From: Aporrectodea caliginosa
Taxonomy: Eukaryota > Annelida > Clitellata > Crassiclitellata > Lumbricidae
Assembly: GCA_020284085.1 (NCBI GenBank)
Contig: JACEVL010000938.1
Location: 926,269 to 990,268 of the forward strand
Direction: 5' to 3'
Length of the DNA: 64,000 bases
Shown: one piece after another, positions 9,806-40,689 of the stretch
How positions within the stretch are numbered: the stretch's first letter is position 1
How the letters are laid out: the number at the start of each line of letters is the position of its first letter
Program-made: the position numbers and the translations under genes
The notes under the pieces: generated by a model
Database searches by the model: none
What the model saw: the letters and a program-made list of their open reading frames with translations, nothing else
Told to the model about the DNA's origin: nothing

Positions 9806-9905
9806 CATTGCCATCCGCCAGTGGTTATAGATAGCACATGCAGAAGACATGGTACATGTTCTGTTGGCACCCATTCATCTTTATTTCTGGACCGCTGGAA
9901 TGAAC
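9806..9905. repeat. ~100-bp conserved block, copy 1
   Basis: It is highly similar to 15968-16068 (shared core ACATGTTCTGTTGGCACCC, then TCTGGACCGCTGGAATGAAC), but the flanks do not match. On the minus strand both copies have an H-box-like AGATGA/AGATTA and potential hairpins. Neither has an ACA box at the right place, so no RNA class is assigned. Confidence 0.6.
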
Positions 9906-13359: not shown

Positions 13360-13643
13360 CTATATTGCTCTAAAGCAAGTGCTCTTAAGGTGTTTTGTGA
13401 TGCATCCAGCAGTTGACTTGACCATAGGACTTTCAAAATATGGAGTACCTGAGAAAATCTGCAAATAACAAATTGGACAAACACTATATTATTATTATTT
13501 TACAGTACTAGTTCTGCTTAACCAATTGCTGAGGGCATAAACATGCTCAACCTGATTAAATCTGTGTACCAGAACGTATAACTATAATGTTACTTTAAGA
13601 AAACATAATTCACAATGCAAGACAACAACAATGCTTGCATTTG

Positions 13644-13731
13644 CTTTGTGAAAGTGTTCAGAGTACGAATACTGTTGAGTTGGTCATGTAAGAATACCAC
13701 TCCATTGTTTCATCATAATACTTTCACAAAG
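13644..13731 (-). ncRNA. Box C/D snoRNA, family alpha (28S guide), copy 2
   Basis: Box C ATGATGA (13716-13710) and box D CTGA (13661-13658) are closed by an 11-12 bp terminal stem (CTTTGTGAAAG with its complement). The guide just upstream of D is AGTATTCGTACT. It pairs with the conserved 28S segment AGTACGAATAC, recalled from memory, and places a C at the fifth position. It is a paralogue of 18284-18366 and is probably processed from an intron of the minus-strand host transcript. Confidence 0.85.
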
Positions 13732-13830
13732 ACATCAAACTCTACAATGTGATTTATTGTTAATTTATTAATCTATCGGTCTCAACAAAGACATCTACTA
13801 CTATTTAGTTTTTGTTTGTCAGCAGTTAAA

Positions 13831-13905
13831 AATGGACATCAGTTCAAGTTATATCACCAACTCATCAGTGAGAGAGTTCAGTCTCATCACAGGAGCCCAT
13901 TAAAA
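13831..13905 (-). ncRNA. Box C/D snoRNA, family gamma (28S guide)
   Basis: Box C GTGATGA lies at 13890-13884, D' CTGA at 13868-13865 (overlapping a C' TGATGA) and D CTGA at 13842-13839. A short AATGG/CCATT stem closes it. The guide GAACTCTCTCA upstream of D' pairs with the 28S AGAGAGAGTTCA segment in the same register as the copy at 14613-14685. The terminal stem is weaker than in the other copies. Confidence 0.7.
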
Positions 13906-14213
13906 TTTCTATACAATCAATGTCAAAAACAGCATCAAATAATACATTTGTGATCAATTTTAATCAGTTGTGTTCTCCTACATAATTAACAAATTCAGTT
14001 TACAGAATTTCAACCAGAGCTCAACCCAAGGGTCTTAGACATGCATAATCAAAGCGCAAATTTCTGTAATGCTGTTTTGAAAAAACTTTGGAGGCCTACT
14101 GAATTGGCAAAAATAAGACCTTGATCAGTCAATAGAAGAGTCCTCAACATCTGGCAAAAAGAGTTAATGTCTAATGTTACAAGCTTGTATAAGTTAATAA
14201 TGTCATAACTTAC

Positions 14214-14339
14214 ATTTGTCTGGCCATAGCCACTGCTATTCTCAGTAGTCAGAAAATAACCTTGATTTGGCCACATTAATTTTCCACGTGTTTCAAAATG
14301 TCACATCATAAGAAAAACATGACATTTAATGGTATGTGG
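14214..14339 (-). ncRNA. Box H/ACA snoRNA, copy 1
   Basis: This is the paralogue of 15079-15204, also 126 nt. The order on the minus strand is: 5' hairpin with upper stem AAATGTCA/TGACATTT, H box AAATTA, 3' hairpin closed by TGGCCA/TGGCCA with an apical TATTTTC/GAGAATA stem, and ACA (14219-14217) three nucleotides from the inferred 3' end. The lower 5' stem has two mismatches here, so this copy may be weaker. Confidence 0.65.
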
Positions 14340-14612
14340 TTTAGACTTTAATAAATGTTACTATGTACACATGTTGTATTTTACCTGTAAACCTGACTAG
14401 CAGTCATTAACAAAATGCTTCAACTTTCACCAATAACAACTCGGTTGTTCACCAATGCAACTCAGAACCATCTATAAAACAGATAAAAAGAAATTTAGGT
14501 CACCGATTAATTCATGTGTATACTCTTAACAATTTGTATAAGAACAATTCTTACTTTTTGACAAGCATCTTTAATATTTTTTAACTTATTTTATCTGCAT
14601 GGTAAAATATAA

Positions 14613-14685
14613 GAGCTTCGTCAGAGTACTGTAATGTCATCAAAACATCAGAGAGAGAGTTCAAAAACTGTCATCACAGAAGCTC
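14613..14685 (-). ncRNA. Box C/D snoRNA, family gamma (28S guide), tandem unit 1
   Basis: Box C is GTGATGA (14677-14671), D' CTGA (14651-14648), C' TGATGA (14643-14638) and D CTGA (14624-14621). The terminal stem GAGCTTC/GAAGCTC extends outward through GTAAAA/TTTTAC. The guide upstream of D', TTTGAACTCTCTCT, is complementary to 28S AGAGAGAGTTCAA, the stretch where (from memory) human SNORD26 and SNORD81 act. The predicted methylated base is the third A of that run. Confidence 0.9.
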
Positions 14686-14737
14686 AGTTTTACTGCATTG
14701 CAGCATAAAAATGCACTACACTGAATTAAACCAGTAC

Positions 14738-14790
14738 ATCAACTCATTAGTAAGAGAGTTCAGTCTCATCACAGGAGCCCATTAAAATTT
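14738..14790 (-). pseudogene. Truncated box C/D snoRNA, family gamma
   Basis: Box C GTGATGA (14772-14766) and the GAACTCTCT guide are kept. D' has changed to CTAA and the distal D box with its stem is missing, because the tandem-duplication junction cuts through it. It is probably non-functional. Confidence 0.7.
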
Positions 14791-15078
14791 ACATACAGTC
14801 AGCATCAAATAATACATTTATGATCAATTTTAGTCAGTTGTGTTCTACATAATTAACAAATTCAGTTTACAGACTTTCAACTAGAGTTCAAACCAAGGGC
14901 CTTAGACAAGCATAATCAAAGCACAAAATTATGTAACACCTCTTCGAAAAAACTTTGGAGAGGCCCTCTGAATTGGCAATATAAGACATTGATCAGTCAA
15001 TAGTCATTATAACAGTCCTCAACATCTGGCAAAATAGAGTTCATGTCTAATATTATGAGCTTGCACATTTAATGTCAT

Positions 15079-15204
15079 AACTGTCTGGCCATAGCCACTG
15101 CTATTCTCAGTAGTCAGAAAATAACCTTGATTTGGCCACATTCATTTTCCACATATTTCAAAATGTCACATCACAAGAAAGACAAGACATTTAATGGTAT
15201 GTGG
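15079..15204 (-). ncRNA. Box H/ACA snoRNA, copy 2
   Basis: The 5' hairpin has a perfect lower stem CCACATA/TATGTGG, an internal loop (CCATT / TGAAA) and an upper stem AAATGTC/GACATTT. The H box AAATGA (15147-15142) follows directly. The 3' hairpin is closed by TGGCCA/TGGCCA with an apical stem around TATTTTCTGACTACTGAGAATA. The ACA box (15084-15082) lies three nucleotides from the 3' end. This hairpin-hinge-hairpin-tail order is the H/ACA class, which guides pseudouridylation. The target was not determined. Confidence 0.8.
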
Positions 15205-15493
15205 TTTGGACTTTAATAAATTTTACTTAATACATATTATGTACTTTACCTATAAACATGACTACAGCACAGTCATCAAAAAAGTTTGCAACTTTCACAA
15301 ATAACATCTCAGTTGTTCACCATTGCAACTCAGAACCATCTATAAAACAGATAAAAATAAATTTAGGTCATCGATCAATGCATGTGTATTCTCTTAACAA
15401 TTTGTATAAGAACAATTCTTACTTTTTGGCAATTGTCTACATTTTCATCTTAAATATTTTTAATTTAATTGATCTGTATGGTAAAATATAAGA

Positions 15494-15562
15494 GCTTCAT
15501 CAGAGTACTGTAATGTCATCAAAACATCAGAGAGAGAGTTCAAAAACTGTCATCACAGAAGC
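15494..15562 (-). ncRNA. Box C/D snoRNA, family gamma (28S guide), tandem unit 2
   Basis: It is near-identical to 14613-14685: C GTGATGA (15556-15550), D CTGA (15503-15500), stem GCTTC/GAAGC, the same internal D'/C' pair and the same TTTGAACTCTCTCT guide to 28S. Confidence 0.9.
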
Positions 15563-15967
15563 CCAGTTTTACCGCATTGCAGCATAAAAATGCACTACAC
15601 TGAATTAAACCAGTACTGCAAAAGAGTAGTTTATATCCAACTCAATTTGTTAGTATTAATTTTACAATAAATGTGGTTACACCACACAATGGAAAACTTG
15701 TGACAGCTTAGTTGCAACAAGCACACGGAACATGTGATAGGCAGACAGTACAACTACAAGAGATGGTCATGGAATATTACCAATCTGTAATTCTTTTATA
15801 AATCTCGTTTGTAACAAATTTATAATATTTAAGAAGATTGCTCTACTAACACCAACACAATAAGTTTCATGATTTGCAAGTTCGCTGATCAAATACTAGG
15901 ACAAATACTATGCTTTATCTGCTTACAATATTTCTTATTCTAGCAGGATAAAATAATCACTAACATA

Positions 15968-16068
15968 ATGCCATCCGGCAGTGGTTGTCGAGAGCCCACG
16001 CAAAGACATGGTGCATGTTCTGTTGGCACCCAATAATCTTTACTTCTGGACCGCTGGAATGAACAAAG
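15968..16068. repeat. ~100-bp conserved block, copy 2
   Basis: This is the paralogue of 9806-9905, in the same orientation. It lies among the snoRNAs between a gamma and a beta copy. That position and its RNA-like hairpins (minus strand TGCCA..TGGCA, ACATG..CATGT) make a structured RNA possible, but it has no diagnostic box set. Confidence 0.6.
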
Positions 16069-16162
16069 GCTAGACTAAAAACCAGGAATTTAAATACACG
16101 ACTGGCTAGCTTTTAAATTGTTTGCCATTTTTAATCTGCAATAAAATGCACAACTAACACCA

Positions 16163-16232
16163 TTTTGACTCAGATTTTAGTTTGTCTACAAGCATTTCAG
16201 ACAGGGATAACTATAAATCATCATAGTCAAAC
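16163..16232 (-). ncRNA. Box C/D snoRNA, family beta (28S guide), copy 3
   Basis: Box C ATGATGA (16224-16218) and D CTGA (16173-16170) are closed by a TTTGACT/AGTCAAA stem. The internal D' CTGA (16200-16197) is preceded by AGTTATCCCTGT, the complement of 28S ACAGGGATAACT in the peptidyl-transferase region. The fifth base upstream of D' pairs with a G of the GGG run. Confidence 0.88.
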
Positions 16233-16394
16233 AAATTTTCAATATCTTATACATATTACGAAAATGAAACCTAATAAAATTCTAACACAGCTACAAAGTA
16301 CACAATTATTACAGAATGGAAATACCCAAGGTCAATACTGCTGAACTGTTAAAATTTATTTAATCATAAAAGCAACATAAAATTGAATTAAAAG

Positions 16395-16870
16395 ATTTAA
16401 ATTTCAGTCAATTGTATTGTATCTATCAATTTATATAGCCTAGCGCCTCTCGCTGTGCACACCAATCAGAGGCGCTCCCAGTGTGAAAGACAGAGAAAAG
16501 AATGAGGTCTTGAGACAACAAAAAGAGGCACTTGGCCCACCAGTTAATAAACAGGAACGTGTCAAAGATGCAAAGCTGGTTCCATAGTGCAGGGACAATG
16601 AAGGCAAAGGCTCGTGTTTTAGCCATAGCAGTTTTCGCTCGTGGGACAAAGAAATCATGTTGGTTTAATGAGAGTAGTGGCCGAAGAGAAGTAGCCGAGG
16701 CCGGATAAGGTCACATAGATTTTGGGAGATCGGCCAGTATAAGATTAAAGAAAGTACCTTGAACTGAACCCGGGCAGTAAGAGGGAGCCAATAAAGGTGG
16801 TCAAACATGAAAGCAGAGATGTAGGATGAGCGAGGAAGTCGGGCTATTAGTCTGGCCGCAGCATTTAGCT
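16395..16870 (-). mobile_element. L2/CR1-type LINE 3' fragment
   Basis: The minus strand encodes NAAARLIARLPRSSYIS, then DHLYWLPLTARVQFK, and, after a frame change, KTRAFAFIVPALWNQL. This is the usual order at the C-terminus of L2/CR1 reverse transcriptases. It ends with GGCGCCTCTGATTGGTGTGC, GAGAGGCGCTA and an ATACAAT tail. It is 5'-truncated and inserted among the snoRNAs. Confidence 0.85.
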
Positions 16871-16927
16871 GTTCACCTACATGATTAACAACTTAGGCAC
16901 AATTGTGCCTAACTGACATTTTGTTTC

Positions 16928-16988
16928 TGGCTCAGAATTTTGATTTCCTCAGAATATCAGACAGGGATAACAATAATCATCACTGCCA
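16928..16988 (-). ncRNA. Box C/D snoRNA, family beta (28S guide), copy 2
   Basis: Box C is GTGATGA (16983-16977), D CTGA (16935-16932), stem TGGC/GCCA and D' CTGA (16960-16957). The guide GTTATCCCTGT is the same as in 16163-16232 and 17948-18008. Sequence outside boxes and guide has diverged, which points to selection on the guide. Confidence 0.85.
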
Positions 16989-17372
16989 AAAACAAAAGCC
17001 AAAAATATACAAATAGATCTTTTAAATTAATTCTGCATATAGACAATGAACTTTTACATCTTTCTAATTTAATATCTGATAGCTACAATTAAAGAAAACT
17101 AAAGGTTCACAATCAAAATTCCAAGTCTTCGTAATTAATCATACATTTGTAATAAGGTATAAAATAAATGTAACAAATTAACTCGTCAGTAAGCTTTTAC
17201 TACGTCAAGCAATTCCCAGTTCAGAAAATGCTGATGAACTAGATTCGAATAGCAGCTAAACTGCAAATTATCAAATGACAGCTTGACCCTTTTATACTGA
17301 GTGTGTACTAAAATGTATGGGAAATTAAGTTTAATACAGGTTTTTGAAAACATAATTTTAACGAAAATGCAG

Positions 17373-17444
17373 TAACACCATCAGAAAGTAAGATTCTTCC
17401 TTATAACATCAGAAAGAGAGAGTTCTTTATCATCATTGGTGTTA
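17373..17444 (-). ncRNA. Box C/D snoRNA, family gamma (28S guide), diverged copy
   Basis: Box C ATGATGA (17436-17430), D' CTGA (17412-17409) and D CTGA (17384-17381) are closed by a perfect 8-bp stem TAACACCA/TGGTGTTA. The guide GAACTCTCTCTTT upstream of D' contains the complement of 28S GAGAGAGTTC, shifted by two bases relative to the other gamma copies. It lies outside the 880-bp tandem duplication. Confidence 0.85.
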
Positions 17445-17947
17445 TCTACCTTAAAGGTTGTACTGTGTGCACTATAAGAACATTATACTGACAGCATTGA
17501 GAAGCCCACGGACAGGTCTGACAATTAGGCCACGCTGGCTAGCCTCCTCAGAATCTGCCTCATAATGCACATTGCTTGATTTAAGTCGCAACTGTGTCAA
17601 CTTGATTTTTCTTCTAATAAACAAATATGTGATGATGATGATATATCAATTCATGAAGTCAGTTAGCAGTAATTAGCACACATCATATTATACCAAAAGG
17701 AGATAAACTTTTAGTTCAGAGTATTACATTTCCAATCACACAACTGATATATGATTTCAAACTGAATCTGGGAACCAATCATGAAGTTAACAAAGTATGG
17801 CCAATTCAAACACACTAATAATTTTACTAAGTTCACTTTCAAATGTTCACTTCAACAAAATGTATTAAATCTCTACAAAAGTCTACATGTGTACAGTAAC
17901 AAGCAAAAAAATTAAAATACACTGCTAAAAATGAGTATTTGTGTTTC

Positions 17948-18008
17948 TGACTCAGGATTACAATATCCTCAAAATATCAGACAGGGATAACTAAGTTCAT
18001 CATTGTCA
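17948..18008 (-). ncRNA. Box C/D snoRNA, family beta (28S guide), copy 1
   Basis: Box C is ATGATGA (18003-17997), D CTGA (17955-17952), stem TGAC/GTCA and D' CTGA (17980-17977). The conserved guide AGTTATCCCTGT targets 28S ACAGGGATAACT. Confidence 0.86.
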
Positions 18009-18283
18009 TTTTCACAATCACAGCATTAAAAATCTTCAAATGAAAATGTTTAAACGTAGCTTTTTATAGTTTTAAAAGTAGTTTTCTTAATCAATGTATC
18101 TTTAAGCAATTATGTTCACACTTCATACCACATTTCACCACTAATACAAAGTCAAACAATAAGAATATTTCATCATATACCTTCAAAATCTGCCAGTTGT
18201 TACTTTTAAATAGTAAAAAATGTCCACACAATTGAATTGGCCATTAAGCCAAATAGCTAACTGAATTAAAACAAGAAATAAAA

Positions 18284-18366
18284 GCATGTGAAGTCAGACA
18301 GTACGAATACTAGAGTTGGTCATCATTTTATACCACTCTTTAAGGTATCATCACTCTTCCACATGC
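18284..18366 (-). ncRNA. Box C/D snoRNA, family alpha (28S guide), copy 1
   Basis: Box C is GTGATGA (18354-18348), C' ATGATGA (near 18320-18326) and D CTGA (18297-18294). The long stem GCATGTGAAG/CTTCCACATGC has one bulge. The guide GTATTCGTACTG before D is complementary to 28S CAGTACGAATAC but sits two bases further from D than in 13644-13731. This is the promoter-proximal member of the series on the minus strand. Confidence 0.88.
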
Positions 18367-19224
18367 ACCACGACAGCTAACCAACAATTCCTCAGTTTGA
18401 GGAAACACAATACATAAAATGATCAAGTGTAATAGAGCAGTGCTAACCCCAAGAGGCAACCCAGATACAAAATGTGTGACTAGCATTATTAACCTCAACA
18501 TGCAAGAGCGGCAATAAGTTGTAAGGAAACTAACTGTTTCACAATGCAGTGTTCAACTAGCAAGTTCTGAACCAGTCAGTTAATCATGGTTCATATGCAA
18601 AAGATCAGCAAAAAATATTCCTGCATTACTTTTCAAAGCTGTGGGCTCACAGGTTGAAGGTTTATGATAGACGGGTACGACTGTATTCCAGAAAGTTTAG
18701 AAATAGAAAGTCTACCTGAAAGGCAAAACGAAATGTACTTGTGCAACATAATTAATCTTGCCTATTTGAAACGACAAGCTATTCATAATGATGCTACAAG
18801 TCATTTTTCTGCCTGGGATTTACTACACGCATTACCACAACAACGGCAATGCATGCGAAGAAACCAGGGTAGTACAGTCTGATTTAAACTACAACTATAA
18901 AAGAGCAATACAGCCATAGAATAACTAGTAAATCACGCCTCGGCTCCAGAGATCGGAATACTCTAGTCATTCCACTCTGATCCAACGAGGGCTTTGTATT
19001 TGATCCCACGAGGACGAAAGATATAGGCTACACGTGCAAAATAATGTCTTTGTAAGAACCACATTGCACGAAAAGCATGTTAGAATCATACTTGACGCTA
19101 ATCCAACGGTAAAGATGCTAGATTTAACCACACGATCTTTCATACCTGGCATTCAACAGCCGTGATTTTTCACATTTTTCTCAAATTCCTATCACCCCAT
19201 CGATGCATCACCCAACCCCAACTT

Positions 19225-19290
19225 CGCTGTGAAAGAACGATTTAGGTTCACTCAGCAAGGAACCGGAAGTAGTCGCGCTTCTCACGTGAC
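19225..19290 (-). promoter_or_regulatory. Candidate 5'TOP promoter of the snoRNA host gene
   Basis: On the minus strand an ETS-like ACTTCCGGTT (19270-19261) and an E-box CACGTG (19288-19283) lie upstream of a pyrimidine start CTTTC (19235-19231). Such TOP starts are usual for snoRNA host and ribosomal-protein genes. Transcription into the snoRNA series is inferred. Exons of the host RNA could not be resolved. Confidence 0.45.
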
Positions 19291-19544
19291 TGAATAGACG
19301 CGTAATGCTTAATTATTATAGCGCATATTCTGAGTGAATATGACGTTAGTAAGTAAGTAACCGTCAGTAAAGCGTGACAAACACCCACACTTTACAACGA
19401 CGCACACAGTAGTGAACTAGAAGCATAATGGTAGTAGGAAAAACCGATACAATATTATTAACAGCTTCAAAGAGTAAAATTAATATGCAATTATAGCTCG
19501 GAACTAACAGCATAAATATTTTCATAAGCCAAAGATTGGAATTA

Positions 19545-22499: not shown

Positions 22500-22770
22500 T
22501 CAAGTGGTACAATCTGTAATTGCTATCAGACAGTACGAAATTTGGTACTGTATATATGCAATCAAGCAATACTGTTCAGTACTTGGATATCATACAGTCA
22601 TTTTGGTACTTGGTAATCAAGCAGTTCAGTCAGGTGCTCAGTTTGTACAGTACAGTTTGCTAGTTAGGTTATCAAACAGTGCAGTTTGGTACTTGGTTAT
22701 CAAGCAGTACAGTTTGATATTCAGTTATCAAGCAGTAGTATGGCACTCAGATATCAAAAAGCAGTGCTGG
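22500..22770. repeat. Degenerate TATCAAGCAGTACAGT-type repeats
   Basis: The words ATCAAGCAGT, CAGTACAGTTTG and GGTACTTGGT recur at irregular 25-60 bp spacing. The overlapping open frames are repeat artefacts. Confidence 0.6.
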
Positions 22771-22965
22771 TTGGAATATGGTACTGGAATAAGCTGGGAA
22801 GTACTAGACAACTCCTCCGACATATTGGCCACATGTGGCCCATCCATTTAGTATGTAGTACTATGTACGCAACTACGCATGGATGGGTTAACCCAAATGC
22901 GTATGCGGGTTGTTGTTACTGATAGGCCTAATGTACGTACGCATAGGAAACGAGGGGGTGAAACC

Positions 22966-25591: not shown

Positions 25592-25675
25592 CTGTGTATT
25601 GTATTGTATTTATATCTATCAATTTATATATCACCTCTCACAGTGCACACCAATCAGAGGCACTGTGAAATCACA
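25592..25675 (-). repeat. LINE/SINE 3' tail fragment
   Basis: The minus strand shows the GTGCCTCTGATTGGTGTGCA tail, GAGAGGTGATATAAATTGATA and an ATACAAT end, as at 16410-16480 and 32433-32497. It is part of the tail family shared by LINEs and SINEs here. Confidence 0.7.
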
Positions 25676-29000: not shown

Positions 29001-32000
29001 GCTTCGGCGTGAAACTCCGATTCAGCGTCCATAAGAGTAGTCGGGAGCGCCTCTGAATGGGAAATCTGGTAGGGCGCTATAACAAGTGTTCAAATACAAT
29101 ACAATACAATACAATCAGATATTAAAAGATAAAGTATACAGGTTAAGCATAAATATTTTATAAATCTCTCAGGAACCTGGAATTTCTCTGATTTCCTCTC
29201 TGATACAAATAGATGACTGAAAGGGCATCCTGAGCCAAAATAACATCAATGTCCTGAAAGAGTTGAACTATGAAAAGTTACTCAAGCATAAAACAGCAAC
29301 AGAAAACCAGTACCTAAAAAAACCACTTTTGGCATTACACTTTTCGATCCTTCATCAGTGTGGGAAGTGAAATGAGAAATATTCAATAATCAATCTTCAG
29401 ATAGAGTTTGTCAAATTATTAATCATTTCAAATCTATATAATCCAAAAAGAACTTATACGAAACCAATCAACTAGTGTAATTATTCTGCCTCAACTTTCT
29501 TGGTACATGTTACTGTATGGTAATTTTCATCAGGGAACTGCTGTACATAATCATTACACTAGAACTTTGTTAAACTACCGCTCTGATATTGTACATAATA
29601 CAATTAAATTGTTCTCGATAAAATGTTCTGGCCCTTCGATATGGAATAATCTCCCAAATGAAATTATTCTTAATAAAATGTTCAGGTGTTTCAAAAATTC
29701 TCTTTTAACAGCACTGCAAAATTTACTGACCGAGGCAGAGATAGAAGATGCTGTCCGGAGCGTACTCCTCTCCCGACGGCTTCCGCACTTCACGAATGAA
29801 CAGACTCAAGCAGTGGTTGAGCTCTTCCGCACTGCACTGCAAGATCTCGACCTTGAAGGGCTTGAAGCGACCTTGGGCTCCCACGGACGTCTCCATCTGG
29901 GCATTTCTCTGCGTCACCCAGTGCCACCAGGCGTTTAATCCATACGAATACTTCAGCTTCATGCTCGAGTCGTTGACTGGGACTCGACGAAGCGTCGCCT
30001 TCACTGGCTCCAGTTCTACAAACGTCCTCTTTGATGGCCTGGCGCTTTCGTCCAATGCATATCGCTTCTTAACTCCTGCTAAGCTATCTACAGCGTCCAA
30101 GGTATTTGCATCGAGTTCCATCGATTCACCTACAAACGTGTCATTATCAACGTACGCTGTATGTATGGAGCATTTATGATGTGCATTTAAAGATACAAGC
30201 CTATTTAACTACGGGCCAACCCAGGCCCTCAATTCTAAGGTAAGCAAATGAGGGCCACTGGAAGTTGTGACATTAAAAAGGTGCCTTGCAAGCTGATGGC
30301 TTGCTTCCATTGTTCGGCATGCCCTGATTGGTCCCTGCTGTTCCCTCTGTCATCCGCTCCTTTCCTCTCCTCCTCTCTCGCTTTACCTATCGGCCTTGAA
30401 AACATCTCCCCAAACAGCCCTCACATCATTTGCCAGACAGTGCTGGGCCATGAAAGCACTTGCCAAAGAGTTCTGTACACTTGACATATAACACTGGACT
30501 AGTGATGTAGCTTTTCCGGAAAAGTATTTTATGGAAAATTTTCCGCAGAACCGGAAAAATACATTTAACTCATAATGTCAGATTTTCAGTATGAGACAAC
30601 ATTAACAAATTTCTGGGTTTTTAAAGTTCCTTTTATTTACAGTATTTCTGTCAATGTGGGCAACATTCACCTTAAAAAATTAAAATAAACATTAAAGACT
30701 GTTCATTAGCAGTTCAGGCTACAGTAGTCTAGTTTGATATGTTGTTAGTGTTATAAACTATCAGTATATACTGTCTGACAATTTGACATTTTGTCAGCTG
30801 CTCAGTTATTAGTCAGCTTTGCCCTAGTCCATACACCGCTCACTGAAGGCAACAGCTCATAGATGAACAATTGTATTATTGAACTAAAACACATTCTTTT
30901 GAGAGAAAAAATTTAATCATTTGGAATTTTTTCGATGATATATGGGATCTCGGATTTAGGATAATATGTGTAAATTAGAATATTTGACTGCCTTGTTCTT
31001 CTTAAGTATTAATGTATGTTTATTACCATGTCTGTACACCAAAATGCGGAGAGCAATTGGTCAATTAAAGAATATTCTTATCTTATCTTTTTGCTACTTC
31101 CATGAAAAGCAGATTTGAAAATTAGTGTCAGACTGCAATGGCAATGCCAATAACATTATATATATTTCAAGACATAAAATAATAGTATAATAGGGCTCAT
31201 AAGAATTAATCTGTTGCAGTATTAAAATTGTGTCTGTAGTACTACTACATCAAGTGCTGTTTTTGTCTCATATTTTCATAACTAAAAAATATTTAGGAGA
31301 CTAAATCATAAAAAATAGTTTATCTAAATTAATTAAAGTGAAGTTTAATTCCAATTAATTCTTAAATGTTTGTCGTTGTTGAGTCTTGTGAACACACTGA
31401 ATAGTAAGCACTAACGGTGCCATCTATTGAATAAACATAATAATATTATGGGTAATGGGTTAGATATAATCTATTTGGAGCCTATAATATGGGACATAAT
31501 GATGAACTGTATAGCTTAATCATGATCTTTAATGTGATTGATATGCTTGAGTTTTTGTGCACCAAAGTGCGGTATGCAATTGGTTTCAATAAAGAATATT
31601 TTTCTGAGTCTTCTATATCAGTTATAACTACATAAGACAGTATAGAGTGAGTGATGTTTAAACATTATTATGCATTTAAATTGTTATTTAGTAATATTAT
31701 ATTGATGGAAAAATATCGGAAAATTTTCCGGAAAAAACACTGGAAATTTTCCGAAATTTTCCGGAAAAATATGAAATTTTCCGGACAATTTTTCCGCCTC
31801 ACAACACTACACTGGACAATGAAAGCAATCACCGAACCCATTCTTACTTTGTTCACCGAACACCTCACCTCAGCTGGACCACATGGTAAGAGGCACAAAA
31901 ACATAACATGCGTACAAGCCGTACATACGTCTCGAGGTGCCTATTACTATAAAGATTGTTACATACCAGCTGTACCATCCAAGACACTCTCATCCGAAGG

Positions 32001-35000
32001 ATCATCCGGGATCTGTGTCGCTATATGCATTGCCATCTCTACCACTTCGAGAGGAAGCTGCTGCACAAGGTTTGACATTTGGGTGGCCTCCTCACTGGCC
32101 GCTTCTTGCTTCACCACAGCTGAACACACAAAGATGAAAATGCTACAGCTTAAAAGAACAGAAGTCCATTAACCCTTTAACGACGAGCGTAATGTAACGG
32201 AACATTTATATAGCGCCCCTTCAAGATATCTACTCATAGGCACTCTTGGCACTATCCTATTATGATGTTAACTGTTCTTATGAACGAATATATTATATCA
32301 GTTAACCAAACAATGCACAGTAAGCTGAGAGTCACCAATGGCAGGCCCAGGCACACATGTGGAACCAAACAATGGATTCCCATCGACAGCTCAACATGGC
32401 ATGGATGTTCACAGTGAGGTATGTATGTAAGTAGCGCCTCTGATTGGTGTGCACTGCGAGAGGCGCTATACAAATTGATAGATACAATACAATACAATGT
32501 GTGAGGTATGTACGTACATATGTGTGTATGTTTAAAGGATTAAGCTGGTCCCAGGAGGCAGACAAGAGCATCACCTACTAGCAGTTTCATTTTCTTAGCC
32601 TAGGCATGACGACGGGTGGCCAGTCCTCTGCTTGCCGTCTGTTCTGGCCACAGTCAGCACATTCACTTTATCACTAAGTTTACTAGAGATTGCCATTGAA
32701 CTGAAATCTTTTCTGACAAATAGAATAACAGTTGAGTGCTGGTACTACCTTTGCTCTCATCAACCCCTGCCTCAGCCTCTTGACTGCCTTCTGCCGCGGC
32801 ATCGGCAACTTTCAACATGTTGTCTTCGTCAGGTGGTAATGACTCCCGAATGCTCTATGAAATCAAACAGATTGCACATCAGTCTTCACATTATACACAT
32901 AATTACAACTCCATGTAATAAGTGAAACAGAAATAAATGCACTTGTGAAATTGGCAAGTTGTTTGGCAGCTGGACTGCAACCTTCAATCCGAAACCACAT
33001 CTCTACAGACCGCTGACAGAATGAGCCATCACGTAGCTCTACTTCGTTGAGTTATAAGTAGTGTTGTGAGGTGGAAAAATTGTCCGGAAAATTTCATATT
33101 TTTCCGGAAAATTTCGGAAAATTTCCAGTGTTTTTTTCCGGAAAATTTTCCAATATTTTTCCACCAATATAATATTACTAAAATAACAATTTAAATGCAT
33201 AATTATGTTTAAACATCACTCACTCTATACTGTCTTATGTAGTTTTAACTGATATAGAAGAAGAAATATTCTTTATGGAAAGAAATTGCATACCGCACTT
33301 TGGTGTACAAAAACTCAAGCATATCAATAACATTAAAGATGATTAAGCTATACACTTCGTCATTATGTCCCACATTAAGGGCCCAAATAGATTATTTATC
33401 TAACCCATTACCCATTACGTTTATTCCATAGATGACACTGTTAGTGCTTACTGTTCAGTGTGTTCACAAGTCTAAACAACGACAATACATTTAAGAATTA
33501 ATTGGAATTAAACTTCACTGTTAATTTAGAGAAAATATTTTTATGATTTAGTCTCCTTAATATTTTTTACTTATGAAAATATGAGACAAAAACAGCAATT
33601 GATGCAGTAGTGCTACAGACACAATTTTAATACTGCAACAGATTAATTCTTATGAGCCCAATTATACTATTATTTTAATAATATAATGTTATTGGCATTG
33701 CCATTGCAGTCTGACACTAATCTATTTATTAAGTAGTAAAAAGGATAAGATAAGATAAGAATATTCTTTTATTGACCAATTGCTATCCACATTTTGTTGT
33801 ACAGACTTGGTAATAAACATACATTGATCCTTTTAAGAAGATCAAGACGTCAAATATTCTAAACTACACATATTATCCTATTTAAATCCAAGATCCCATA
33901 TAATCATCCCAATGATGAAAGTTTCTTATTTTAGTGTAATTGTTTGTCTCTGAGCTGTTGCTTTCAGTCAGCGGTGTATGGACTAAGGGCAAAGCTGACT
34001 AATAGCTGAGCTGCTGACAAAATGTCAAATTGCCAGACAGTATATACTGATAGTTTATAACACTAACAACATATCGAACTAGGCTACTCTAGCCTGAACT
34101 AGAACTGCTAATGAAGTCTTTAATGTTTATTTTAATTTTTTTAAGGTGAACGTTGCCCACATTGACAGAAATACTGTAAATAAAAGGAACTTTAAAGAAA
34201 TGAAATTTTCTAGTGTCGTCTCATACTGAAAATCTGACATTATGAGTTAAATGAATTTTTCCGGTTCTGCGGACATTTTCCGGAAAATTTCCGGAAAATT
34301 TTCCGCAAAATATTTTTCCGGAAAAGCTACATCACTAGTTATAAGTCAGCAGCCTATCGATTTGGACACCAGCACAAATTATTTAGAAATAAACGTTCAT
34401 GACACACCCATAGAAGAAACAACAAAATAACAACATTTAATTAGGGTAATATTAAGAAACCTTAGCAGTGTTAAATAATAACTTTATTTTTGAATGCCTA
34501 AATAAAACTGAAAACTGAACAAGACCTTCAGCTGTTTCAGTATGTTGCTGATGGAATTCTTTGTTATTGGCATAAGCGCTGGAATGGGAACAGGCACTGG
34601 AAGTGGAACAGGAACAGGCACCGGCCTAGTTCCCATGGATACAGGTGCCGGAACAAACATTGGAACAGGAACTGGGATCGGGATCTTCACAATGTCACCT
34701 TCATCTTTCTCTGTAAACAACAGTAAGGAAAACATATAATTAACACCATTTTACTATTAATGTCATTTGATCCAGCCAAGATGAAGATAATTCTCATGAG
34801 AGATGTATGTAGTTTCAGTAACTTGCACTTTATAAATCTCATCATATTAACCCTCTTTCCATGGTGGATGGGTCGAACTTTGATACAGGTTGCCATGGTA
34901 GCAGGCTGCATCTTACCTCCCATCAATATCAACCTCAGCTGCCAAACCAACAGAGTTGGCAGCAGACAAAAAATGCTTGATGTACAGCACAATCGCACAA

Positions 35001-38000
35001 AGCTACCACTTTATCCTGCTGGCATTTGAGACTCTCAGCTCAATTAACAGTGGTGGTCTACTTTTCGTCACAGAGTTTGAATGCCATCCCTCATAGAACC
35101 AGTGACACAAGAGAAATCAGTACCCTTTACAGTATATTGCTGCTACAAAAGCAACGCCACTGCCTTCCAGGGCCCATGCTTGGATTACCAGTTCTTGATG
35201 AGTTCTAGCCATCCTACAATCATTTCTTTCTCTGGAGAAGTTCTTTTTAACTCCTGGGAGATTATACATATGCTTGGTAAACACAGTAAAAGTTCAGTGC
35301 ATAAACATGCATGCCCTTCCCTCCTCTCTACGTGTTACCATTCTTTCTGGGTCTCTTCCTACAGCCGTCTCCCTCCTCAAAACCTTCTTCTTCCCTAGGG
35401 GTTCTTTTAACTGGAGAGATTATATGCATGTTTGATAAACATAATAAAAGTTTTGTGTATAAACATGCATGTAGGGATATAATTTGGTAGCTCTACCTGT
35501 CTGTGTGTCTTTGGTGAGACGAATAGGGTTGCATGACGTTGCCTTCGTCATCATGATCGGCTTACACATCAAGGACTTGTTCTGCATTTCTTTTGGTGCC
35601 TGTAGTACAGTTCCAGAAGGAAGTGTTCTCTAAAAGATAAAAGAAAACCAAATCAAGATGATAAACTGATATTTCAAACCTTTTAAGACTCAATCACTGA
35701 TATCATTTCGAACTTGGGTTATAGTAGCAATAGTAATCAGTGCCACTTTACCATGAAATTAGAAACTTTTGTACGCTACCTTTGCTGGAGCACTTCCTGC
35801 TAAAACACGAACTGGTGCTTTGCTGCCCATGGACACCTTGGCCACCTGTGGTGTTGAAAATCGTTTATCATCCGCAGGCCCCAGTTTTCGAGCTCCTACC
35901 ACAGTAACCATATGCTTAATTTGCAGAGTTATCCATAAAAATGGCTGTTAATTTGAAACATCCCAGCATTTGAACAGTATGACAATACATGCCCACATAT
36001 CTCTCAGACACTAACAGTTTGAACCGCCAATCATTCCATGTCAAAAATAATGAACCCAAAAATGTATATAGCCGCTTTTGCTCCTTAAATGATCTGTGCA
36101 TTGTACACATTATTCAGTTTGAATAAACGAAAATACAATACAATACAATACAATACATTAGTAAGAAAGACGAAAAACATATTTTTATAAGAACGTTTAA
36201 ACATGCTGTAAAATGTACAGCAGTCAGCATAAAATACCAAATCTCAGTAGTTATTCAGTAATAATGTAAGGTGCTGCGGTCAGAAGAAATGTCCAGTTCT
36301 CAGTGGTCAATAGAAATGTCCAGTTCTCAGTGGTCAATAGAAATGTCCAGTTCTCAGTGGTCAATAGAAATGTCCAGTTCTCAGTGGTCAATAGAAATGT
36401 CCAGTTCTCAGTGGTCAATAGAAATGTCCAGTTCTCAGTGGTCAATAGAAATGTCCAGTTCTCAGTGGTCAATAGAAATGTCCAGTTCTCAGTGGTCAAT
36501 AGAAATGTCCAGTTCTCAGTGGTCAATAGAAATGTCCAGTTCTCAGTGGTCAATAGAAATGTCCAGTTCTCAGTGGTCAAGGAGAAATGTCCAGTTCTCA
36601 GTAGAAATGTCAGGTTAGTAAAATGTCCAATTATTATTATTGTCACTAATTAAATTTGAAATGAATGCACGGTCACACTGATATGTAAATTTGATGCGCA
36701 GATGTCAGACGCCAGAAGAAGATGCAGTCAGATATCGAAGTGCTCGACAGCCAAGGAGAAATGTCAGTGAGTTTTGAGCCACTTTTTGAAGGAAGTTAAT
36801 TTGAGCAACAAAGAGAGAGTGGCAGTCGATTCCATTCCTTGGAGGCAGAGGCATGGAATGCACGCGATCCCATAACTGTTCTGCGTCGCGGTTCAGCTAA
36901 CAGACCCGTACTTGATGATCGCATGCAACGAGGATGGATGTAAGCAGTTAGTAGTGATTGAGGTAGGTTGTCAGTTAGTAGTGATTGAGGTAGGTTGTCA
37001 AATGAGGCTTGGGAGGATTGAAAATTGCCTCACCAACAAGGGAGCACGTACATTACATCAGATGGGTATCTAATCGTTTAGATTAATCGATTAGCTTATC
37101 AATTAGACAAACAGCTAATTCTAAACGATTACCTACAAGATTCTGCTAAATCTAATCGATTAGCAATTTAACTAATTGTGTGCATCTCTGACATCAATGA
37201 CAGAAGAAAACAACTTTGAATTCGTGAAATAGTTGAATGAAACACTAAATAGCCATAAATTTTGAAAAAGAACGCAGCAAATACCTTTCTGTGCAGACTT
37301 TGCATAAATACCGAGCGACATGGAGCTGTTGCTCTCGTTGTCATCGTCTCGCTCCTCATCTTCCTCATCATCAAAGTCTAACTCATCCTCCATCTCATCC
37401 TCAGAGGATGAAGACGACCTTCCACCTGCAGTAAGTAAGTATATTCTTAATTAAGTAAGAACGAATTACTAATTGCACTTTGGCGTACAGACATCTTATA
37501 AAAACAGTTAAAAAGACATAGAATCCTGACAATAAACGTTTTTCATAAGTAAGTTAGTTAGTAAACACAGTTAAAATATCCCTTAATAAGCTATAATGAC
37601 AAAAAATATATTTTCAATAGACAACCGTAAGTTAGTTAGTTAGTAAGTAACTAAGAATATCCCATAATAGACAACCGCAGATTGGTGTACAATCAATGAG
37701 AAATCCTCATCAAGTCAGGCAAATCATATACCAAGGCCTTATATATACAGACAACCAATTTCATTATAACTATATGACTGGAAATCATTTTGAGAGTACC
37801 TCCATCACAAAGCCTTTGCTTATCTACACAATAAACTGATATTAATTGATATCAACACGTTCTTTGCTGTTGACTGGTACTCCAAGTGCCAATTTCTGCT
37901 GTCTCAAAACCACTTTATTTTCTCTGGGTCATTCGCACTCAAGCGCCTCTGATTGGCGTGCACTGCAAGAGATGCTATATAAATTTAGATACAATACAGT

Positions 38001-40599
38001 ACAATACAAAAAGGTTGACCCAGCCTTCCACTCCATAGAGGGCAACTGTAAAATGAGCAATAGGACAGATGGGCGCCTTGCAGGTTGCCATACAGTTAAA
38101 TTAGACTCCTGTTAAACTTGTTATCATCTGTTACTACAATACATCATGTAATCTTACTGTGTAATAGTCAGATTGAATTAATAAACAAATATTATTATTA
38201 TCGTAAATGTCTTTAATAGCTGAAGGTTAGTCACATAGCAAGCAATGCCCAGATACCTAGAAAAGTCAATTCCAGACCATATCCGTTACCTGTTGGCAAT
38301 AATCCCCACTCTGCCAGCTTCATCGACATATTGCTGTGTCTTTTGGAACGTCTCGTCGACGGAGTTTCGTCTTCGTCCAGGTGTTTGGCAGCCTGCTTCT
38401 TTGTCAATTTTGGCATCGCCTTTGTCTTCATAATGCCGCCCTTCTTGACACCCTTCAATGCCTTTTCTGAGCCCGATGCCGTGGCCTTGACTCTTGGCGC
38501 ACCAGAGCCCGAAGGGGTAACTTTCGTGTTGGCACCGTTGATCTGGCCTGAGCCCGACGAGTCTTTGGAGACCTGAATTGGGATGACAATGACTTGACTG
38601 GAAGCCGGTCGGATCTTGACCGGTCCAGAACTCTGCATCTGAGGAGACTTCAGTCGGTCCTTGAGTGGGGGTCGTCCAACTCCTCGCTACAAAATGCATT
38701 CCAGAATCTAACAAGGAGTCATGGGCAATGACTTTCCCCAACCTTTAACCACACTTTTTTATTGACAAAAAGGGACCTAGTTTCCAATAGAACAAAACAG
38801 CTTTGACAAATTCAATATGTTACAATGAGATGTTGGATCAAATGGAGAGTCCGAATAGGGCTAACTCCCTGTTAAACAAGGGTCATCCTAAAATAAGAAC
38901 CGGACTGTATTGTCCTAAGAAAGTGATCAGAATACTACTGAAAGTCTGATATCTGGATATCATAGGAGATGAGAGAAAGTCTCTAAAGAACAAAAACTTA
39001 ACTAGTTAACTAATGTGCACACGAGATAAACTTAGATAACCTGAGAAAAGACATAAGTATGTAATTGATTTTAAAATTTAAAGAAACAGTGCACAAGGCC
39101 TTGTAGCATTACAGCTGCAGCAATAGAACCATGAACACTAAATGTCACTAATAAATAAAATACTAGGATATCTAATAAAAATGAAAATAATAATGTAGCC
39201 TGGCTATATCATAAAATTTTAATTATGATCTTGACTGAACACCAGTGTGATGGTTTTCTCAGCAACCTGGTGGTCAGGTTTGTCATAGTGCGTGTTCTAT
39301 TTCTAGATCGCTTGTGTTACACCCAAGAGATCCTTCAACCCAGGGAAGCAGTAAAAATCTGTTATTTTTTTATCTTTTCATAGTAAAAATCAATAAAAGT
39401 TAATCTTTGAAGCCCGAAACAGATATAAAACAGACCTTAATAATATTTGGAGCCAGGATGTTCGCTGTAGTCCTTTGCCCCGTAGAGACCGTAACCGATG
39501 GACGAATCTGCTTTGGTGAATTCCCGGCCAAAGCATTAGACTTGAGTGGCAGCGTAATCGTCTGAACCGGAAACGACGACATCTGTTCCTGGCTGATGAA
39601 TCTAACAGGCAGCGTAGTACTGGTACTGGCGCCTGTGGTCGTCTTACCCTGGGGGCTCATTGGCAGGATGAACACCTTCTGCACGCCCCCTGACGTCTCG
39701 ATCTTTATCCGGTCACCATCAAGGTGAGAAACAGGAGAAGGCTTCACCGTGATGATTGGTTTCGAGTCCTTCGACGACGATGGAATCGGAACTGAAGTGA
39801 CGTGGATTGCCTTAGTGATGCTCTCGATCACTCTCGGCTTCTCTTTCTCCGGAATAGCTGGAGATGGCACCACCTTCGGCTCTTCGACCACCAGCTTTAC
39901 CTCGCTGCTGACTGGATTATCCGGTTGTGGTTCTTCCAGTACAGCAGTCGATTCTGCTTTGGTAAGTTCTGCCTCGGGAACTAGGTTCTCGCTTTCTTGT
40001 ACCTCCATCTTTGTTGCTTCACCAAGATCTCCAGCCTCTAGGCCAGTCTCCGCTTCGAGCGGGTCTTGACCGGCATTGCCCAAGTCGGAACTAAAGTCGG
40101 TTTCAGACGTCAGTTCAGCTGGATTGGCAGCAACAGGCTCGACGCTATTCAGGAAGTCGACCTCAGCCGGCACCTCGGTCGGCATTTCCGGAAGCTGCAT
40201 TGCCTCTGCGCTCGTCATTCCCACTCCGCTGACCATTTGGTCGTTGAGGACATTCTGCATGATGGATATCTGTCCTTCCATTCCTGACTGGTCAAGGACA
40301 AACTGCGGCTGAGCAGAGGTCGCCATGTCGTCGCTGACGAGCACATACCGCACGCCACCGTCCGACGTCATCATGTAATGTTCTCCCGTTCCCTGGAGCA
40401 CGTCTTCGCCGTCTGCTCCCTGGATCATCATGTACTGTCCCTCGGCCGAATGCTCGTCGCCGTACATGTAGGTGACCATCGGCTCTTGGCCCTCGCCTTC
40501 GGCGGTCGTGTAGTACGTGTTTCCACTGACGTATAACACCTGGGGCTGTTGTTGCTCACCAGATTCAGAGGGATTTAGCTGAAGATCACTCTCCTCCAT
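26100..40599 (-). CDS. ZMYM/QRICH1-family protein with Crypton-derived C-terminal domain
   Basis: Thirteen coding exons join in phase to 1164 codons plus TGA: 40599-39436, 38686-38290, 37425-37285, 35895-35780, 35629-35497, 34710-34526, 32854-32749, 32119-31967, 30129-29731, 28530-28405, 27687-27421, 27052-26938, 26292-26100. The ATG has a good context (GACATGG). Residues 1-388 are Glu/Gln/Ser-rich and 521-568 very acidic. About 607-650 holds [15 protein letters not shown], resembling the last ZMYM Cys-containing segment. About 660-698 is a PVPVPVP tract typical of ZMYM proteins. About 855-1155 is the DUF3504 domain ([59 protein letters not shown]). In this family the domain is a domesticated Crypton tyrosine recombinase and the proteins act in nuclear chromatin complexes. 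No full MYM zinc-finger array was found. ZMYM2/3/4 and QRICH1 remain possible orthologues. Confidence 0.92.
26475..26770 (-). repeat. LINE 3'-end relative in a ZMYM intron
   Basis: It is similar to 32200-32590: a TATAC..GCTCCTTCAAGATACCTACTC tail, GAATGAATAC, AAACAATGCAGTAAGCTGA, a CA microsatellite and a twice-occurring ATTCCCGTCGACAG. It has no coding potential. Confidence 0.6.
28702..29115 (+). repeat. Composite SINE with two tRNA-like heads (best copy)
   Basis: Head 1 (from GATCCTGAGTGGCCGAGTGG to CGGTTTATCAGAGATTAA) is followed by an ACAATACAACAC linker. Head 2 has B box GGTTCGAATCC, then GGGCAAGTCCTTCACTGC. The 3' part is GGGAGCGCCTCTGA..GGGCGCTATAACAAGTG with (ATACA)n. It lies in a ZMYM-gene intron. 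The 3' part resembles the LINE tails of this window, which suggests trans-mobilisation by that LINE. Confidence 0.9.
29440..29725 (+). mobile_element. LINE C-terminal fragment next to a ZMYM splice donor
   Basis: The + frame encodes [14 protein letters not shown], then [15 protein letters not shown] and FKNSLLTAL, the usual LINE ORF2 C-terminal pattern. It is antisense to the host gene and ends only a few bases from the donor at 29730. The open frame runs on into the antisense of the exon by chance. Confidence 0.75.
30500..31809 (+). mobile_element. Non-autonomous hAT element, copy 1, 8-bp TSD
   Basis: Termini are TAGTGATGTAGC and the complement of TAGTGTTGTGAGG. The TSD is CACTGGAC (30492-30499, 31810-31817). 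TTTTCCGGAAAATTTTCC motifs are clustered at both ends. Inside lie two relics of another retroelement tail (GTACACCAAAATGCGG..AATAAAGAATATT-like). It sits in the intron between exons 31967-32119 and 29731-30129. Confidence 0.93.
32200..32500 (-). repeat. LINE/SINE tail cluster
   Basis: On the minus strand a GGGGCGCTATATAAATG-like tail lies at about 32202-32240, related to 26475-26770. At 32433-32497 a + strand GCGCCTCTGATTGGTGTGC..GAGAGGCGCTATA tail with ATACAAT repeats follows. There is no coding potential. Confidence 0.6.
33059..34337 (-). mobile_element. Non-autonomous hAT element, copy 2 (inverted), 8-bp TSD
   Basis: It is the same family as 30500-31809 in opposite orientation, with TSD GTTATAAG (33051-33058, 34338-34345). 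The same CCGGAAAATTT end clusters and the same two internal retroelement tails are present, so those insertions predate spread of this element. It lies in the intron between exons 34526-34710 and 32749-32854. Confidence 0.93.
36285..36608. repeat. 27-bp minisatellite, ~12 units
   Basis: Near-perfect units of AGAAATGTCCAGTTCTCAGT plus GGTCAAT. Because 27 is a multiple of three, several frames stay open on both strands. They are not genes. It is intronic in the ZMYM gene. Confidence 0.95.
37846..38190 (+). repeat. LINE 3' end followed by a SINE tail fragment
   Basis: 37846-38010 repeats the minus-strand LINE end of 16410-16560 (frame words [15 protein letters not shown]) and ends ATACAGTACAATACAA. 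38040-38190 then matches the 3' part of the SINE at 61440 and 44290 (GGGCGCCTTGCAGG..GCCATACAGTTAAA). Both are intronic. Confidence 0.7.
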
Positions 40600-40689
40600 G
40601 TCTTCTTATGGTTCTTGTGTGGAATCTACAGAAGATATATACAGAATATATATCTAACAATTTTTCACACCGTATATCTGGAATACTCT

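Follow-up and report, generated by a model that had tools for sequence, protein, structure and literature searches.

A predicted small nucleolar RNA host gene with duplicated guide RNAs in Aporrectodea caliginosa

When many small nucleolar RNAs (snoRNAs) lie side by side on one strand, do they belong to a single host gene, which positions of ribosomal RNA (rRNA) would they guide, and why are some of them present several times? These questions are raised by a 64-kb stretch of Aporrectodea caliginosa DNA (assembly GCA_020284085.1, contig JACEVL010000938.1, positions 926,269 to 990,268), here called the window. The minus strand of this window from about 19235 to 13640 (the locus) contains nine intact box C/D RNAs and three H/ACA RNAs, twelve intact snoRNAs in all, together with two decayed C/D copies. 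The anatomy of these RNAs points to a multi-snoRNA host gene, which very probably runs on the minus strand from about 19235, or from a point upstream of it, towards 13640, with a predicted promoter, predicted exons, and presumed splicing and processing. We read the minus strand of 13400-19500 letter by letter and applied an Rfam scan and a repeat search to the window. The C/D copies are named a, g and b after the alpha, beta (snoR38 type) and gamma (SNORD26/81 types) families of a preliminary description of the DNA. Among the literature matches listed by a search made without the species name, no title described the locus.

Box C/D and H/ACA RNAs of the locus

The box C/D RNAs were scanned with exact criteria: the C box had to be exact, CTGA had to follow it at 40-100 nt, and the terminal stem had to reach 5 bp. 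The scan found eight RNAs on the minus strand of the locus, none on its plus strand and one match in the remaining 57.9 kb of the window (plus 0, minus 1). In 500 dinucleotide shuffles of the locus, the mean was 0.12 and the maximum two matches; with eight observed against a mean of 0.12 per shuffle, chance occurrence of the C/D boxes was ruled out. The ninth RNA, g1 (18003-17952), has a stem of just 4 bp. Thus all nine carry the C box RUGAUGA, the D box CUGA and a terminal stem (at least 5 bp in eight of them), and alignments of the copies showed that the stem arms vary while their pairing is preserved. A relaxed scan allowing one mismatch was not specific and separated the locus poorly from the remaining window: the locus gave 14 overlapping minus-strand rows and 2 plus-strand rows, against 15 and 7 elsewhere.

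The preliminary description had counted nine box C/D RNAs on a single strand, in families of two, three and four copies with a broken fifth gamma copy, and both the scans and the copy alignments bear this out. It had missed a decayed third alpha copy (a3x), in which 8 bp (1 G-U) of 28S pairing are left. Its statement that nothing within a family persists except boxes, guide and the pairing of the stem does not hold throughout. The g copies and a1 and a2 are much diverged outside those parts, but b2 and b4 are identical at 57 of 57 nucleotides between the boxes through a tandem duplication, and the alpha copies have an internal segment in common.

At the Rfam gathering thresholds the window contains two features, both snoR38 copies in the locus, and 12 of the 13 rows with E<=0.1 in the whole window fall on the minus strand of the locus. 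Two of the three snoR38-type copies pass the threshold of RF00213 (Table 1). The a1 copy fails that of SNORD41 (RF00588) and is filed as SNORD41-like only; the b copies fail those of SNORD26 and SNORD81, and their SNORD26-like and SNORD81-like labels were assigned by guide and D' position. For a2, no Rfam row was found at E<=10. At E<=0.01, blastn matched none of ten snoRNAs tested to any other part of the window. In the 1.1-Gb assembly, the 2-kb piece 13640-15640 has one match. Genome searches returned two snoR38 matches, both in the locus (62 of 277,286 candidates scored), and one SNORD41 match below the cut-off, also in the locus (63 of 230,287 candidates scored).

When both strands of the window were scanned for two-hairpin H/ACA RNAs, nine candidates emerged, the best two of which, HA1 and HA2, have the hairpin-ANANNA-hairpin-ACANNN arrangement. 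The third candidate (22677-22836, plus strand; -37.1, close to the -39.6 of HA2) overlaps a tandem-repeat array. While the two H/ACA RNAs reported previously as interleaved with the C/D RNAs are present, the total is three, the third (HA2') being a tandem copy of HA2. The scan missed HA2', probably owing to an outer stem of 4 bp where the filter requires 5 bp. Hairpins at 17571-17461, 19065-18930 and 14975-14870 (z -1.54, +0.95 and -1.38) were little or no better than shuffled sequences and were dropped.

Predicted targets in rRNA

To assign targets, we used eight eukaryotic rRNA contigs found inside bacterial metagenome-assembled genomes, Rfam consensus lines and an insect 28S-D2 primer (PMC10099737); the remaining metazoan 28S segments were background sequence. 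Targets were called by the D+5 rule against three chosen 28S segments, with no null run: the snR38 segment is the Rfam consensus, the SNORD26/81 segment is part primer and part background sequence, and the SNORD41 segment is background sequence. Against these segments, all nine C/D RNAs show 11-17 bp of rRNA pairing that ends just upstream of D or D', and the rule predicts five 28S positions for them. The predicted target of a1 is the U of CAGUACG; in a2 the guide and the D box are 2 nt closer to each other than in a1, which moves the predicted target to the C two bases on. The three g copies point to one common G, their guides pairing over 11-14 bp at ACAG[G]GAUAAC. The predicted target of b1 is the first A of GAGAGAG and that of b2, b4 and b5 is the A two bases on, which splits the gamma family into one A398-type copy and three A400-type copies. 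We take A398 to be the SNORD26 position and A400 the SNORD81 position. By target, the set would comprise two SNORD41-like, three snR38-type, one SNORD26-like and three SNORD81-like RNAs.

The preliminary description had proposed three undescribed guide families aimed at 28S rRNA. All nine RNAs do match 28S, but three guides are not supported, five positions being predicted, and neither is an undescribed kind of guide: alpha resembles SNORD41/snR51, beta is of the snoR38/snR38 type, and gamma combines the SNORD26 and SNORD81 types. With these matches and five predicted sites, the notion of three new guide families was rejected. In the available part of a published table (PMC11542601), Um4306 stands beside Um2729 and Gm4392 beside Gm2815, in columns taken as human and yeast; the accessible portion of another paper (PMC2780460) lists snR51 with U41, and also snR38.

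The strength of these assignments differs between families. The snR38-type target was matched by g2 in eight of the eight fetched loci, and by g1 and g3 in at least seven loci each among the matches listed; the agreement is not independent evidence, as a word that includes this target had served to retrieve the loci. The Rfam consensus shows the target at D'+5 independently of the fetched loci. The protist large-subunit rRNAs (LSUs) of the eight loci are mostly without the metazoan SNORD41 and SNORD26/81 targets, and the targets of these types therefore rest on the primer and on background sequence. The SNORD26/81-type word is contained in the insect 28S primer as given in the available part of PMC10099737. 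In the eight loci, b1 has a single 11-bp LSU match (in L003), a2 and, in b2 and b4, the main D' have no LSU match, and boxes other than the main one gave matches in single loci only.

The internal segment of the alpha copies, the decayed one included, reads TGGTA..ATGACCA.CTC and lies between the boxes at 18338-18313, 13702-13677 and 15785-15760 (minus strand). It may form a hairpin within the RNA or make an additional 28S contact; an extra rRNA contact is conceivable because ATACCACT, which is complementary to part of the segment in a1 and a2, is present in the L004 LSU, one of the eight loci searched.

For the H/ACA RNAs, ten pocket definitions were tried against the eight rRNA loci and just hairpin 1 of HA1 was kept. 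Its pocket pairs with the L008 18S rRNA around ACTTTTACT[TT]GAGGAAATT at 6+7 core positions, or 6+11 when flanking letters are counted, with a score of 34 that none of 300 shuffled pockets reached (best shuffle 32). The equivalent places in the 18S of L003 and L004 did not pass, and hairpin 2 of HA1 and the hairpins of HA2 gave no trustworthy rRNA pocket match in the eight loci. The site presumably corresponds to the psi814/815 region of human 18S. This predicted 18S pocket is a moderate argument against a purely 28S locus, and the earlier wording that the gene is specialised in 28S modification was too strong.

Duplication of the copies and the host gene

Part of the snoRNA copy number derives from a tandem duplication of about 880 bp (Table 1), the units of which carry b2, HA2 and b3x, and b4, HA2' and b5. 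Copy number would have risen by duplication within the gene, this event still being visible and the other copies presumably older and much diverged; some copies would have kept the same target, some would have shifted by 2 nt, and two would have decayed. In the b2/b4 and HA2 parts of the units, 189 of 197 aligned columns agree, versus 545 of 616 elsewhere (pooled p = 0.0014, about 0.02 for each), with the non-homologous ends trimmed and b3x/b5 (25 of 26 columns) left out of both sides. Lower divergence in the snoRNA parts than around them suggests the retention of more than one copy, without being proof of dosage. Repeated dosage of the same guides, as initially described, is possible; a tandem duplication alone would leave the same picture. 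It is quite possible, although not the view we favour, that the copies are neutral by-products of duplication and that one per target is enough, a reading that is compatible with a host gene and disputes dosage only. The visible tandem duplication and the two decayed copies fit such neutrality, whereas the slower change of the snoRNA parts and the retention of boxes and guide in all three diverged g copies speak for copies that were kept.

Duplication within the host may also be a route to new rRNA marks, an idea that we put forward tentatively and with some doubt. With the distance from guide to D box shortened by 2 nt, a2 might now methylate the C (human C4308-type) two bases from the classical U, mirroring the old two-base split between SNORD26 and SNORD81 in the same gene. 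To our knowledge, the human C4308-type position is not known to be methylated.

The best reading of the locus as a whole is a non-coding, spliced host gene of the UHG/GAS5 kind, with a predicted start and predicted exons. Candidate exon 1 begins with a weak terminal oligopyrimidine (TOP)-like CTTTC, and ACTTCCGG lies just upstream of it (19270-19263). Transcription from about 19235 or somewhat upstream would pass through probably non-coding exons, the introns freed by splicing would be trimmed to the nine C/D and three H/ACA RNAs, and the C/D RNAs would direct fibrillarin to conserved 28S positions. Repeats occur in the snoRNA gene at 15969-16064 and 16411-16562, with copies at 9809-9905, 37855-37998, 32433-32493 and 25603-25664; they are probably mobile elements in the host introns.

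Several points weigh against such a host gene as drawn here. The splice scores come from general weights with no shuffled control, and many other sites score as well. The start at 19235 is ambiguous because the same CTTTC letters (19235-19231) also score as a 3' splice site (TTCTTTCACAG/CG, 7.7; exon from 19226), a reading accompanied by an upstream 5' splice site at 19286, and the true start may be further upstream. Candidate exon 2 has one open frame, and HA1 ends just 15 nt before a candidate 3' splice site. The Rfam check suggested for the minus strand gave two gathering-level and six sub-gathering matches in the locus, but seven of the nine C/D RNAs are below gathering or, like a2, unmatched. 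Finally, the 28S rRNA of the species was not found in the assembly, parts of which read N, with one 5' word or with a core word, either exact or allowing up to 3 mismatches.

It is unlikely, in our judgement, that the snoRNAs instead lie in introns of a protein-coding gene with short unrecognised exons. The open frame of candidate exon 2 would suit a coding host, the splice sites are predictions only, and candidate exons K and K' differ by a net 3 nt (90 and 87 nt); according to the available part of a preprint (PMC13228274), animal snoRNAs mostly have coding or long non-coding hosts, in whose introns they lie. On the other hand, the difference between K and K' is made up of two gaps in their alignment, one of 1 nt and one of 4 nt; stops interrupt every frame of candidate exons 1, K and K'; and a Pfam search with the eight longest frames of the minus strand gave no match at E<=0.1. 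The non-coding host of the preliminary description is supported to this extent, the exons being predicted and exon 2 open. That the locus is a dead relic of unexpressed snoRNA pseudogenes is highly improbable: two broken copies and several sub-gathering Rfam scores would agree with it, but nine of eleven C/D copies retain C box, D box, guide and stem, and all three genome occurrences of the exact snR38-type guide-plus-D' 15-mer are in the locus (about 2 chance matches being expected and 2 found for the reversed control, and diverged copies elsewhere escaping such a search).

Table 1. Features of the locus on the minus strand, in the predicted direction of transcription. Positions are those of the window; a slash marks a splice junction; Rfam gathering thresholds are in brackets.
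Feature	Position	Strand	Rfam bits	Terminal stem	Guide and predicted target	Other properties
Candidate exon 1	19146..19235	minus				begins CTTTC; ends CAG/GTATGA, 5' splice score 8.7; stops in all three frames
H/ACA HA1	18731..18869	minus				hinge AGAAAA, tail ACATTT; best of 9 (-42.4); fold z -4.06, 1/200 shuffles as stable
Candidate exon 2	18651..18715	minus				3' splice site 11.0; CCT/GTGAGC 7.0
C/D a1, SNORD41/snR51-like	18284..18363	minus	SNORD41 38.3 (41)	9 bp	D guide pairing over 12 bp with 28S; predicted Um4306-type, on background segment
C/D g1, snoR38/snR38 type	17945..18011	minus	snoR38 43.6 (45)	4 bp	D' guide, 14 bp, 2 G-U; predicted Gm4392-type
C/D b1, SNORD26-like	17373..17444	minus	SNORD26 37.3 (44)	8 bp	D' guide, 13 bp, 1 G-U; predicted Am398-type
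C/D g2, snoR38 type	16920..16995	minus	snoR38 46.2 (45)	12 bp	D' guide, 11 bp
C/D g3, snoR38 type	16164..16231	minus	snoR38 55.2 (45)	6 bp	D' guide, 13 bp, 1 G-U
Decayed alpha copy a3x	15739..15790	minus				without C box; CTGC replaces D box; repeat families D12/D13, alignment
Tandem duplication	13855..15616 (14737-15616 + 13855-14737)	minus				about 880 bp; 85.6% identity over 909 columns (blastn); repeat families
C/D b2, SNORD81-type target	15493..15563	minus	SNORD26 33.3 (44)	7 bp	17 bp with 3 G-U; predicted A400-type
Candidate exon K	15250..15339	minus				TTTATAG/ATGG ... TAG/GTAAAG; stops in all frames
H/ACA HA2	15079..15204	minus				hinge AAATGA, tail ACAGTT; second of 9 (-39.6); fold z -5.56, 0/200 shuffles as stable
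Broken SNORD81-type b3x	14750..14777	minus				D' reads CTAA; D box and stem absent; truncated at duplication junction near 14737
C/D b4, duplicate of b2	14614..14684	minus	SNORD26 33.3 (44)
Candidate exon K', duplicate of K	14385..14471	minus				splice scores; stops in all frames
H/ACA HA2', duplicate of HA2	~14213..14342	minus				weaker outer stem of hairpin 1; fold z -4.90; duplication alignment
C/D b5, SNORD81-like (GAACTCTCTCACTGA)	13831..13901	minus	SNORD81 32.6 (50)	offset 7 bp	11 bp; predicted A400-type
C/D a2, alpha family	13645..13731	minus		12 bp	11 bp

Other features of the window and comparison with known systems

Outside the locus, four features of the window were recorded, all on the minus strand. 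An 885-aa open frame (55670-58327) has DDE_1 and Tc5-type helix-turn-helix domains and an internal 120-bp repeat (5.6 copies); we take it to be a pogo/Tigger-like transposase. A 401-aa open frame without a Pfam match (39400-40605) has seven relatives, five of them 74-87% identical to it and the other two 46-47%, and is probably a conserved gene exon. The QRICH1-domain open frame at 29723-30208 (E 7e-26) is perhaps derived from a mobile element, and the weak mascRNA-menRNA match at 812-875 (29.6 bits, gathering 42.5) is perhaps a tRNA-derived repeat.

The locus is an ordinary gene of a known kind, and its most interesting point is the two-base shift of a2. It shows the evolution of an rRNA guide set, with same-site, two-base-shifted and decayed copies within one gene, and the two-base guide shifts give a simple testable prediction. 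In vertebrates, SNORD81 lies in GAS5 and SNORD26 in SNHG1. The locus resembles GAS5 and SNHG1/UHG in that a single gene, to all appearance non-coding, holds several snoRNAs in its introns (predicted ones here), and differs from them in that SNORD26-, SNORD81- and SNORD41-like RNAs, snR38-type copies and three H/ACA RNAs share one gene. The Drosophila Uhg hosts are non-coding. The clustered intronic snoRNAs of Uhg1-Uhg8, as far as the available source text describes them, are similar to the present ones in arrangement.

Non-coding multi-snoRNA hosts are documented in the accessible portions of PMC7073466, in which SNHG1 hosts seven snoRNAs, and of PMC13228274, a preprint according to which similar snoRNA isoforms of Drosophila may guide different sites. 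Copying of snoRNAs within a host is known from sponges, nematodes and platypus (PMC3412847, available part). The cis-duplicated sponge snoRNAs described in the same portion of that paper are, like ours, copies in neighbouring introns of one gene, but their hosts encode ribosomal proteins. The snoRNA clusters of Neurospora, as presented in the accessible text of PMC2780460, also contain relatives of snR51/U41 and snR38; they differ in being fungal, and the guide sets were compared in part.

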